This document shows positions 3,213-23,621 of a stretch of 32,609 nt of DNA, in pieces. The first letter of the stretch is position 1. The number at the start of each line of letters is the position of its first letter. Below the pieces are notes generated by a model. The model saw only the letters and a list, made by a program, of their open reading frames with translations. It did not search any database and was not told where the DNA came from. This DNA is from a candidate division TA06 bacterium (GTDB taxonomy: Bacteria > Hydrothermota > 32-111 > QNBC01), in assembly GCA_003641665.1 (NCBI GenBank), contig QNBC01000005.1, forward strand, positions 1-32,609, in the 5' to 3' direction. The translations under genes were made by a program, and so were the position numbers.

Positions 3213-3396
3213 TATTCTAATCCCTGCCATATTCGTGATTGCTTAAGTTTTTTGAGCCAACACCTTACCTTTGGGGAACCGGCTCGGATATGGATTGCAG
3301 ACCATTCCGATGGTGCTATGAAATATCCGTAAGGTGCCCACTTTAAAAGTAAGGTTCAAACAGCTAAGATTTACACGGTATGGTGGGGATAGATTA
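3213..3396 (+). ncRNA. ssrS: 6S RNA
   Basis: Closing stem AATCCCTGCCATA(3219-3231)/TATGGTGGGGAT(3379-3390); internal pairings TTGAGCC(3252-3258)/GGTTCAA(3353-3359), CACCTTAC/GTAAGGTG and CGGATAT/ATATCCG; about 180 nt, directly after zapA. Exact ends are estimated. Confidence 0.85.
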
Positions 3397-14325: not shown

Positions 14326-16083
14326 ATTAACGAGGATCTTTTTGAAAAACTAAAAAAGTTAATTGACTTAACGAAAAACGATAAAAATCAAAATCGGGAT
14401 ATTTCCGATTCGCTCAAGAAAATTCTTAACATTTCCAGGGAGCTCACTAAATCCGAGTATATTCTTATTTTTTTACTCGAAAGTAACGGGTTTGTTGTGA
14501 AATACGGCATCGGAAGAAAGGTTGACGAATTAATCGGTCATGTCCTTAACTCGGGAAAAGGGATACCCGGTTGGGTGATGCTGCACAATCAAATGGTAAA
14601 TCAGATTAATGTATCAAGAGACATACGATTTGATTTTGATAATAAAATCTCTCTCACTATTTTACCCGATTCTGTCCTTGCCGTTCCCATAAAACGCGGG
14701 AACATAGCGGGTGGTGCTGTTGTTTTCTACAATAAGTCGCTGCATAGAAAGTATATGAAATCTGATGAGGAAGTAGCAAATTTAATTGCCGATATTTTTA
14801 GTTCCGAGGAATCGGAGATTACTATTGAGGACAGCATTATAAACGAAGCGGCTTCAATAAATGATATGGAAGTTAAAACAGAAGCAAAAGAAGCGGAGAA
14901 GACACCTGTTGAAACTACAGCCGAGGAAGAGAAAATCGAGAATAAAATGGAAATTGCTGCCAAAAAGGAAAGATCGACTGTTTCTGGGACCGCCAATGAT
15001 ATTTATAAAATTGCATTGGAGACTGTTACTTTACCCATTGTTCTCATTGATAAAGATTTGAAGATTCTGTTTATTAACAGAGCTTTTTCCGATGCGTTTG
15101 ATATATCAAAAGACAATGTAATTTTAAAGGACATAACTACGGTTATGGATTTTCGAACGGAAAATAATGATAATTTATGGGAAAAAATTAAGATTGATTT
15201 TTTTAATCCATCACAGGATATAGCGGCGAGTAAAGCCACAATTGTTATAAAATCCGAAGAATCCAATGAGAAAAAGTATAATGTTGTATCTCATTATGTC
15301 AAATTAAACGAATATATTTTTGGAAAAGTCATAGAATTTGCTCCTCTCCCTACGGAGGAAGAGCTTCAGGCAAAAGAGGAAGAATTTATACAGAATGTTT
15401 CCCATGAGTTAAGAACACCTCTTAGTGCAATTTTAGGCAGTATACAAATTCTTATGTCGTCCATAGGCGATCAATCTGCGTTGGGAGAAACCGAAAAGCG
15501 TTTTCTATCCATTATAAACGAGGAAGGAGAGAAATTTTCAAAGGTTCTTGAAAATATCATCAGTATGAATATGAGCGCAAGTGGAGAGGTCGGGACGATA
15601 AAGAAAGAAGAGGTGGATTTAGTTGAAATAATAAATGATGCCGTGAAACAGTATGAAGAAAAAGCGAAGAGTAAAAATATTAACATTGTTGTTGATCTCA
15701 GCGATAAATTGGGCTCGATTAAAGGTGATAAAATGGCGCTTTTCTATGTTTTCAGTCAATTGATAGATAATGCTATAAAATTCAATAAGGAAAACGGGGA
15801 AGTGAAGATATCGAGCCCCGGTTTGATCATCTTCGATAATATATGGCAAGCGCAGGTTACCGTTAGGGATACCGGTATCGGAATAAGTAAAGAGGATATA
15901 CCTCACGTTTTCGATAAATTTTTCAGAGTAGAAAATAAAGTGCATACGGAAGCAGGAACGGGGCTTGGTCTATCCACTGCAAAAGATATTATAACAAATC
16001 ATGGCGGAATGATTACATGCAAGAGCGAACCGGGGAAATGGACCGAGTTTATTGTGATGATTCCTGCGGAATCCATGCTATAA
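14326..16083 (+). CDS. GAF/PAS sensor histidine kinase, proposed ATT start
   Basis: H-box FIQNVSHELRTPLSAILGSIQIL, N-box DNAIKFN, G-boxes DTGIGISKEDIPHVFDKFFR and GTGLGLSTAKDI. The GAF domain reads upstream of the listed GTG at 14497; the reading frame is open back to the TAA at 14314-14316. Confidence 0.85.
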   Translation: MNEDLFEKLKKLIDLTKNDKNQNRDISDSLKKILNISRELTKSEYILIFLLESNGFVVKYGIGRKVDELIGHVLNSGKGIPGWVMLHNQMVNQINVSRDIRFDFDNKISLTILPDSVLAVPIKRGNIAGGAVVFYNKSLHRKYMKSDEEVANLIADIFSSEESEITIEDSIINEAASINDMEVKTEAKEAEKTPVETTAEEEKIENKMEIAAKKERSTVSGTANDIYKIALETVTLPIVLIDKDLKILFINRAFSDAFDISKDNVILKDITTVMDFRTENNDNLWEKIKIDFFNPSQDIAASKATIVIKSEESNEKKYNVVSHYVKLNEYIFGKVIEFAPLPTEEELQAKEEEFIQNVSHELRTPLSAILGSIQILMSSIGDQSALGETEKRFLSIINEEGEKFSKVLENIISMNMSASGEVGTIKKEEVDLVEIINDAVKQYEEKAKSKNINIVVDLSDKLGSIKGDKMALFYVFSQLIDNAIKFNKENGEVKISSPGLIIFDNIWQAQVTVRDTGIGISKEDIPHVFDKFFRVENKVHTEAGTGLGLSTAKDIITNHGGMITCKSEPGKWTEFIVMIPAESML

Positions 16084-18045
16084 GTATTCTACCGAATCAA
16101 CATAAATTCTGGATTTTCCTTTTCTTTGAATCGATTTTAAGAATGTAAAATCGGAAAGTTTTTTTGTTTTGATGATTATTTCATTATTTGATTTCGATAT
16201 TGTTGTGGAATTACTTTCGTATCTTGACAATTGTTCGTAGAGTCTCTCGGGAAAAGGTCTGTTTTCAGATGTTTTGACGGTGATTGTGTGGAAGTAAGGT
16301 GGAAGAGAAAATTCTCTTCTCAAATTTAATGTATACGATATGTAATTTTCTATTTTGTTTGATGATAAATATGGGACGAAATCATAGTAAATAGGAGACT
16401 GTGTTATGATTTTTCCCCGAGGAACGAGAAATGATTTCAGATATTCAATGATACGTACGAAATGCCATTCGCTTTTGATTATATATTCGTTTAAAATATT
16501 CTCGATGGAAGGGATAATTATTGTGTGAAATTTATTGGGATAAAGGTCTCTGAATATAAAGGAGGTTGTAATAATCAGGTCATATCGACTTATTTCATTA
16601 ATATTTAGGGGAGTATTCGCTGAAATTGTCTTAATATCTCCTTCGGTAAATTCATTTCTGAGTTGCGAAGCGATTTTTTCCATACCTGTTCCGGAAAAAT
16701 TCAGATTGTTTGAACCACAGTTAATGCACCTTTTTATCGTAAAATACTTCTTGCATTTTTGACAGTAGTAAAGGTTATTCTTTCCAGTGAATGTGAGAGG
16801 AGTATTGCAAACGGGACAGCTTACGATTGTGTTACAATTGTTGCATTTCACAAAAGGATAGTAACCGAGTTGATTGTATATTATTAAAGTTCGTTCCTTT
16901 CTCTTTATACCGGATTTTATTTCCGATATTATCTGTTTTGTGAGAATATCGTAGGGATTCTTACTTTTGAGATAGTAGAATTCGGATTTTGTAGAATCGT
17001 TTTCAATCAATCTGGTTCTTCCCGCATTGATTGAAGGAAACAGGTTTATAGAGGGAGTTTTTCCTATTATATAGAGAGGAATGGCATATTCTTTGGCAAA
17101 AATTCCTGCTACGATTTCTGCATTGTAAAACGGCATGCTGTCGTAGTGAAAGTGATAAGGAGATTCCGGCATAAGGAATACAAGGGAAGCAATATTTTCA
17201 TAGGGAAGGAAAAGAGCATCTCCCGTTCCTACAATTATTTTCGGATTCCCGGCAATTATATTATGGAATGAAATATTTTTCTCTCTATTGTGTAACGCGG
17301 ATGAATAAAAACAGACATCATTTTTATAAACGGATCTTAAAAAATCAATAAGGTACTGATGAGAGAGAAGTTGAGGAAGAATAATTAAAATTCTTTTGTT
17401 CTCACTTAAATTAATGCGGATAATTTTGTTAATATAATCATACATGACAGGTGATTTGCGTATAAAAACGGTTCCTTTTCTGTCAATCGGTGTATTACTC
17501 TTGGGAAGTGAAGAAAAATCGGTGAATTCTGTTTTTATAGCATCATTACGACAGTTGAGGAGTGTTTTTACTTCCTTTATTAGACCGTGTTCAATCATTT
17601 TATTAACGGTGGAACGAGTCGTGTGCGAAAGTAATTCCCTTTTATCGATTCTGTCATTAATCAAAGCTAAAATCTCTTTTTCTCTTTTTGATGCCTTTTC
17701 ATTCGATATTCTTTGATATTCGATTCGATAATTCGGGTTGGATGGAGGTATTAATTTTGTGCAGAATTTCCCGATATTTTGCAGAAAATAGTTTGAAGTC
17801 TTTTTTATAACGTTTAATGAGTTATTATTTATGACTTTAATCTTGTATTTTATGTCAATGATCTCTTTTAGATTTTTTACTTTTGTTTTTGAGCCGATTG
17901 TGACGACAATACCGTGAATTTTTCTGTTTCCAAGAGGAACAGTAACGATATTACCTATCTCTATTTTCCCGATAAAATTGTCCGGAATTGCGTATGTAAA
18001 CAGTTGATCCACATTGCCATTAACGAGAACATCACATGTTTTCAT
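16078..18045 (-). CDS. priA: PriA-like primosomal protein (probable pseudohelicase)
   Basis: N-terminal 3'-DNA-binding domain (CDVLVNGNVDQLFTYAIPDNFIGKIEIGNIVTVPLGNRKIHGIVV), winged helix and eight zinc Cys (CNNC, CPVC, CQKC, CINC); ATPase motifs absent. Start reassigned to the second Met, 7 nt downstream of a TATAAT box. Confidence 0.88.
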   Translation of the reverse strand: MKTCDVLVNGNVDQLFTYAIPDNFIGKIEIGNIVTVPLGNRKIHGIVVTIGSKTKVKNLKEIIDIKYKIKVINNNSLNVIKKTSNYFLQNIGKFCTKLIPPSNPNYRIEYQRISNEKASKREKEILALINDRIDKRELLSHTTRSTVNKMIEHGLIKEVKTLLNCRNDAIKTEFTDFSSLPKSNTPIDRKGTVFIRKSPVMYDYINKIIRINLSENKRILIILPQLLSHQYLIDFLRSVYKNDVCFYSSALHNREKNISFHNIIAGNPKIIVGTGDALFLPYENIASLVFLMPESPYHFHYDSMPFYNAEIVAGIFAKEYAIPLYIIGKTPSINLFPSINAGRTRLIENDSTKSEFYYLKSKNPYDILTKQIISEIKSGIKRKERTLIIYNQLGYYPFVKCNNCNTIVSCPVCNTPLTFTGKNNLYYCQKCKKYFTIKRCINCGSNNLNFSGTGMEKIASQLRNEFTEGDIKTISANTPLNINEISRYDLIITTSFIFRDLYPNKFHTIIIPSIENILNEYIIKSEWHFVRIIEYLKSFLVPRGKIITQSPIYYDFVPYLSSNKIENYISYTLNLRREFSLPPYFHTITVKTSENRPFPERLYEQLSRYESNSTTISKSNNEIIIKTKKLSDFTFLKSIQRKGKSRIYVDSVEYL

Positions 18046-18052
18046 GAAAATG

Positions 18053-18081
18053 ATTATATTCTTTAAAGCGACCAGCGTCAA
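18053..18081 (-). promoter_or_regulatory. Predicted sigma70 promoter for priA-like gene, apparently leaderless
   Basis: On the - strand: TTGACG (18081-18076), 17-nt spacer, TATAAT (18058-18053), then 7 nt to ATG at 18045. Confidence 0.7.
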
Positions 18082-18181: not shown

Positions 18182-18210
18182 AAAAGAGCCATTTTTCGCT
18201 TGACTTTGTC

Positions 18211-18231
18211 ATTCCGAACTTGTTTCGGAAT
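18211..18231. repeat. Inverted repeat ATTCCGAA-CTTGT-TTCGGAAT within GTCATTCCGAACTTGTTTCGGAATCTCA
   Basis: Read directly; 8-bp perfect arms and 5-nt loop; resembles dispersed GTCATTCCGRACTTGTTYCGGAATC intergenic repeats known from several bacterial groups. Confidence 0.75.
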
Positions 18232-18288
18232 CTCATTCTTGCCGGTTAATATGTTCATACCTATCTACCCAACCTCCTTCCAAACTTC

Positions 18289-23084: not shown

Positions 23085-23621
23085 ATGAAAAGAGCGATAT
23101 TATTTATATTACTGTTTCCGTGTTTTGTTTTTGCTACTTCTTTGAATTTTTCTACATTTGTGTCTGATTTTTCAGAGAAGATATATGATGCGGATTCCAT
23201 GCAAATTGCTAAAATTACGGGGAAATTGTATATTCAAAAACCCAATCTGTTGAGAATGGATGTTAAAACACCGGAAGAACAGGTGATGATTGTTAAGGGC
23301 GATTCGGCAATGATTCAAATAAAAAATACAAAGCAAATAACATATTCTATAATCCCGAAAGAAAACGCGTGGTTGATTCCTTCCAACATACTTTTTAATA
23401 CGGATAGCCTTTTCAATGTCAATAAAACCGGGGATACGCTCGTTATCACTCCGAGAGATTCCACGATTCCTCTGGATAGTATAAAAATAAATAAAAATTC
23501 ACCAATTGAATTTATGGATATCTTTACGAAGGATCAGATGTTGAAGTTTCGTTTTTCAAAACAGCAAATTGACAAAAAATTAAATCCGAAACTGTTTTTA
23601 TTTCCTAAAAGTAGCAAGTAG
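23085..23621 (+). CDS. lolA: LolA-like outer-membrane lipoprotein carrier protein
   Basis: Signal peptide (MKRAILFILLFPCFVFA) and LolA-like repeat pattern (ITGKLYIQKPNLLRMDVKTPEEQVMIVKGDSAMIQ). Confidence 0.82.
   Translation: MKRAILFILLFPCFVFATSLNFSTFVSDFSEKIYDADSMQIAKITGKLYIQKPNLLRMDVKTPEEQVMIVKGDSAMIQIKNTKQITYSIIPKENAWLIPSNILFNTDSLFNVNKTGDTLVITPRDSTIPLDSIKINKNSPIEFMDIFTKDQMLKFRFSKQQIDKKLNPKLFLFPKSSK

Follow-up and report, generated by a model that had tools for sequence, protein, structure and literature searches.

The ATPase of PriA is dispensable for replication restart in E. coli, yet it is conserved in most bacteria, and its purpose is unsettled. A locus on contig QNBC01000005.1 raises the question of what a PriA may do once its motor has been erased. 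The stretch of DNA analysed (32,609 nt, referred to here as the window) belongs to a 97% complete WOR-3 MAG of 1.75 Mb in 184 contigs. A preliminary description had noted an intact open reading frame for a PriA homologue that kept its 3'-DNA-binding domain (3'BD), winged helix and eight zinc cysteines but lost its helicase motifs, and had proposed an additional pseudohelicase lineage. The features of the locus are as follows.

18053..18081, minus strand: promoter TTGACG-17-TATAAT, 7 nt ahead of the priA ATG, 11/12 consensus matches
16078..18045, minus strand, including the stop codon: priA, PriA pseudohelicase of 655 aa (profile, PDB, AlphaFold and structure searches)
17731..18045, minus strand: 3'BD, residues 1-105 (Pfam PF17764)
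17476..17730, minus strand: winged-helix region and linker, residues 106-190 (AlphaFold helices 120-128, 135-139 and 144-152 with flanking strands)
17434..17469, minus strand: former motif I (Walker A), now VFIRKSPVMYDY (alignment)
17161..17175, minus strand: former motif II (DEEH), now LMPES (alignment)
17041..17067, minus strand: former motif III (GSATPS), now IGKTPSINL (alignment)
16717..16845, minus strand: cysteine-rich region with eight zinc Cys (Cys columns conserved 75/75)
16537..16572, minus strand: former motif V (GTQMxxKGxD), now ITTSFIFRDLYP (TTSFIFRDLYP) (alignment)
16411..16482, minus strand: former motif VI (DFRxxER..QVAGRAGR), now IIKSEWHFVRIIEYLKSFLVPRGK (alignment)
16081..16329, minus strand: C-terminal domain (CTD), residues 573-655 (AlphaFold; structural match to PriA)

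The sole Pfam domain recognised in the window PriA was the PriA 3'BD (PF17764, E 8.8e-18, 64.4 bits against a cut-off of 22.7), in which Y18 and G31 are invariant across 67 PriAs; F16, the G39 or G40 region and K60 fall on the known 3'-end pocket positions of E. coli PriA, with T17 replacing Asp. The eight zinc cysteines (residues 401, 404, 410, 413, 428, 431, 440 and 443) aligned with those of 74 other PriAs, and an eight-cysteine zinc region inserted in lobe 2 was present in 75 of 75 genomes. A sequence search of the PDB matched solely PriA (E 9e-17). The AlphaFold model, based on 67 sequences (pLDDT 88, pTM 0.87), predicted that both RecA-like lobes, the zinc region, the winged helix, the 3'BD and the CTD are all formed. 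A structure search of the PDB likewise recovered the six-domain PriA fold: the nine top matches were all PriA (E 1e-26 to 1e-37), with the highest TM (0.73/0.74) for 8fak, E. coli PriA on a fork with PriB. The domains first described as kept are therefore indeed present by Pfam, structural modelling and cysteine conservation. NCBIfam matches were likewise to PriA throughout. The NCBIfam equivalog for priA (TIGR00595) gave 134 bits, under its cut-off of 230; this match starts at profile position 16, beyond the Walker A columns, and the shortfall in score thus lies in the motor motifs.

When aligned with 74 further PriAs from the phylum, the window PriA proved to lack helicase motifs I, II, III, V and VI, in agreement with the open reading frame, frame and positions given previously; the loss of motif V had not been mentioned and was seen here. 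In the alignment motif VI reads KSEWHFVRIIEYLKSFLVP, with FLVPRGK at 16411-16431. None of the elements of an SF2 3'-5' PriA helicase (Walker A and B, motifs III, V and VI) survives, and the protein is a pseudohelicase in the sense of a PriA homologue minus its catalytic residues. All four species of the family lack the five motifs in intact frames. Family f2, its sister, has the canonical motifs (GQPATGKTEVY, DEEQ, GRAGR). The other two species of the genus closely match the derived forms SPxxYDYI, FLMPESP and IIGKTPSI, and a partial likeness was found in the sister genus (YDRI, FLSSESP, IFGKTLSI). The lost motifs have not drifted neutrally, since they have turned into new conserved sequence within the genus. 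From the sequence we infer that the window PriA is without ATPase activity and retains fork binding.

The gene starts at ATG 18045, and its last codon ends at 16081, followed by the stop at 16078-16080. A longer reading from ATG 18084, taken from the list of open reading frames, is unlikely and was dropped, because 18045 aligns with relatives and the conserved promoter sits between both ATGs. This promoter (TTGAC-17-TATAAT, 6-7 nt before the priA ATG) is kept in G001, G002 and G003, that is, in four species including the window's own, with the homologous sites at loci L010, L011 and L012. No Shine-Dalgarno sequence was visible at the priA start in the four genomes; together with the short distance from promoter to ATG this points to a priA mRNA that is likely leaderless. 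A kinase gene lies tail-to-tail with priA in all four genomes. Elsewhere in the window, lolA at 23085 has the same promoter layout (TTGACA-17-TAGTAT-6-ATG), and a 6S RNA (Rfam RF00013, 86 bits) lies at 3218-3393 on the plus strand, upstream of the RNase Y gene. An inverted sequence, GATTCCGAAACAAGTTCGGAAT, in the intergenic region upstream of priA (~18190-18260) resembles a dispersed repeat or terminator.

An assembly or sequencing artefact was considered and ruled out: the 655-aa frame carries no frameshift and agrees with the intact frames of the three other species, as the preliminary description would have it. The secA of locus L089 (G001:C153) has internal stops and a split frame, most likely a frameshift in that MAG. 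A profile search of the window's own assembly turned up no second priA, although the 97% completeness of the assembly leaves slight room for a missed copy; RecG (C1) and a frame of Mfd size (C61) are among the other TIGR00595 matches there. The closest named relatives of the window PriA come from a candidate division WOR-3 MAG (58% identity) and from a MAG labelled 'Proteobacteria' (78%), which is probably mislabelled, given that it groups within the window's genus.

The loss extends well beyond this family. Among 75 WOR-3 PriAs, one per genome, 35 lack Walker A and are referred to here as motorless (without GxxxxGK[ST]); they come from about 13 of the 30 sampled WOR-3 families. On a species tree of the 75 genomes built from RpoB and RpoC (2415 columns; SecA had been searched as a marker and was replaced), motorless PriAs occupy four places, which requires no fewer than four changes. 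These places are the window's own family, with f2 as canonical sister; a clade of 15 genomes (f20, f25, f18, f4 and f13), with f10 and f30 as canonical sister; a clade of 13 genomes (f24, f9, f28, f15, f12 and f3); and genus g40 of f27, with the canonical genus g46 as sister. When PriA itself was placed on a tree under a mixture model, after removal of every motif column, four changes were again required and the outline agreed with the RpoB+RpoC tree; forcing the motorless PriAs into a single clade was rejected (AU p 1.9e-6). The motor was therefore lost at least four independent times within WOR-3, the direction being set by the canonical state of most bacteria and by the improbable regain of all motifs; the additional lineage proposed earlier is real, and the proposal was too small. 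All 35 motorless PriAs have lost motif I as well as the KGxD of motif V, and 33/35 have lost the GR of motif VI; the DEE of motif II is kept in 11/35. This uneven survival indicates graded erosion, with the window's family near the far end.

In a TIGR00595 scan of 120 genomes of the phylum, matches began at profile position 6 or later in motorless families and at position 1 in canonical ones. Eight fairly complete WOR-3 genomes (G076, G107, G110, G111, G092, G100, G054 and G044) gave no PriA match at E 1e-15, for which PriA loss or assembly gaps are possible explanations. Within WOR-3, the range weaker than 1e-105 held motorless PriAs only. In other phyla ~18 of ~190 genomes fell into this range, by score alone and with two or more of them split matches; these may represent further unreported pseudohelicases.

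PriA was the fastest-evolving gene of its block, with identities of 78/58/40% compared with 84/73/67% for the kinase and about 92/92/79% for SecA, which may suggest that part of its former functions has been relaxed. Between the window's genome and G001, dN was 0.133 and dS 1.27 for the whole gene (0.125 and 1.35 for lobe 1), and dN was 0.025 for the zinc region; the resulting dN/dS of ~0.1 is approximate, dS being close to saturation, and is low, in line with the selection assumed at the outset. Conservation between the two genera was weak in the winged helix (22% identity) and CTD (36%). Where RpoB/C identity was the same (~0.86), the lobes had an identity of 0.59 in motorless and 0.76-0.79 in canonical PriAs, and the 3'BD one of 0.56 versus 0.59. 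Lobe/3'BD distance ratios, taken as one value per family, had medians of 0.66 vs 0.90 (p 0.0006) and 0.56 vs 0.91 (p 0.0002), with no difference in the ratios for the zinc region and CTD (p 0.67 and 0.37); these p values are indicative, as families are not fully independent. Extra constraint has gone solely from the motor lobes in motorless lineages. Motor and fork recognition are thus separable in evolution: the lobes speed up after the loss, unlike the zinc region and 3'-end domain.

A search for restart partners recovered DnaB in nearly all WOR-3 genomes, the window genome's own copy being a fragment at a contig edge. DciA is present in the window genome and in two of the three other family members. 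At the level of search matches, no DnaC/DnaI-type loader was clearly recognised; most matches were frames of DnaA size or short fragments resembling IstB. RecG is full length in the window genome, and a UvrD-type helicase is a short fragment there and whole in G003. DciA as compensation for motor loss was unsupported, as it occurs with both PriA states: it was undetected in f7, f19, f14 and f27/g46, all of which keep the canonical motor, and the motorless genomes without detected DciA (G002, G009 and G068) are mostly incomplete.

In E. coli every domain of PriA takes part in gripping the fork, and a pore for the ssDNA of the lagging strand is made up of the zinc region, lobe 2 and CTD (PMC10175261). 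PriA-PriB restart works in vivo without PriA ATPase, and in vitro the K230A variant of PriA still supports the loading of DnaB (PMC10175261). DciA has been proposed as a partner of PriA (PMC9825169) and as an aid to reloading where PriB, PriC and DnaT are missing (PMC12547741). The domains kept in the window PriA are those needed for the ATP-free role of E. coli and D. radiodurans PriA, and we consider it quite likely that the organism's own PriA has become an ATP-independent fork-recognition scaffold that guides the reloading of DnaB with DciA. The two RecA-like lobes would stay as a folded scaffold unable to bind or hydrolyse ATP. Abandoned forks and D-loops would be recognised by the 3'BD, which would take the leading-strand 3' end, and by the winged helix, which would contact the parental duplex, with lagging-strand ssDNA held in the pore of zinc region, lobe 2 and CTD; the fork-bound protein may then guide DnaB reloading with the DciA loader. 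A double-stranded lagging strand would not be clearable by such a protein, and it would therefore serve forks already single-stranded or pre-processed by RecG or a UvrD-type helicase. Restart with another helicase, as suggested in the preliminary description, is accordingly possible; it is not required, because E. coli PriA without ATPase can restart forks (PMC10175261).

Other explanations were weighed against these data. PriA's rank as fastest-evolving gene of its block and the family's very long branch in the PriA tree (1.87 changes per site) could indicate a dying gene, functionless since its helicase was lost and drifting to loss. This is highly improbable, as the 655-aa frames are intact in four species of two genera at a dN/dS of ~0.1, the promoter and all eight cysteines are kept, and motorless PriA persists throughout multi-family clades. 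We give just as little credence to a cryptic ATPase that binds ATP by non-standard residues: the lobes do fold, and in the family the loop that follows the first strand retains its length, but the Walker A Gly and Lys, both motif II acids and the motif VI arginines are gone, the P-loop is three residues shorter in most of clade C, and a single K to R change kills the ATPase of E. coli PriA (PMC4504706). Long branches might also conceal a single ancient motorless PriA that spread by gene transfer, in which case the losses would not be independent. Such a history is barely credible, since the motif-stripped PriA tree fits the RpoB+RpoC tree with four changes each, the one-clade topology was rejected under this model, and the degenerate P-loop differs from lineage to lineage.

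A changed role, in which DNA binding is kept for a job outside restart, for instance to block or mark forks, is unlikely but has more in its favour. The new motifs, which the genus conserves and the sister genus shares in part, suggest that the former ATP site may have acquired a new use or a new interface; nevertheless, every fork-binding module is kept in the sole PriA found, and other lineages repeat the loss without a common replacement motif. Within the scaffold reading, we offer as a tentative and rather doubtful extension that the PriA motor is a module readily discarded where DciA loads DnaB, with PriA turning time and again into an ATP-free scaffold for fork recognition, and that the family's dead ATP site has been rebuilt as a new conserved interface, perhaps for DciA-DnaB. 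The natural removals of the motor in WOR-3, at least four and each with motor-keeping relatives, allow the accompanying changes to be compared. Annotation models keyed to the helicase motifs miss motorless PriAs or label them helicases.

A literature search found no paper linking WOR-3 and PriA. Canonical PriA (E. coli and Klebsiella; 8fak, 4nl4) has domain order, fold, eight zinc cysteines and 3'BD in common with the window PriA, but carries the ATPase and helicase motifs that the latter is without; the loader recognised in the window genome is DciA, not DnaC. To our knowledge, helicase motifs are not clear in actinobacterial PriA. The window PriA matches one PriA model, PRK14873, over most of its length, far below the cut-offs of those models; its likeness to PriA of this separate phylum comes from models and description. 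Actinobacterial PriA has been described as 'smaller and very divergent' (PMC1193525). The precedent is the Deinococcus-Thermus pseudohelicase, in which Walker A and B function is likewise gone; D. radiodurans PriA is without ATPase and binds ssDNA, forks and DnaB (PMC4504706), and for the window PriA such binding is predicted from its retained domains. DciA was detected in the Thermus and Deinobacterium controls, as in the window genome. The two losses are independent, in unrelated phyla, and differ in extent: the D. radiodurans P-loop is still recognisable (GKT to GRT), whereas the window PriA has lost motifs I, II, III, V and VI altogether. PriA pseudohelicases and a divergent actinobacterial PriA are thus already known; the WOR-3 lineages, the recurrence of the loss, its complete erosion of the motor and the domain-specific relaxation are new.
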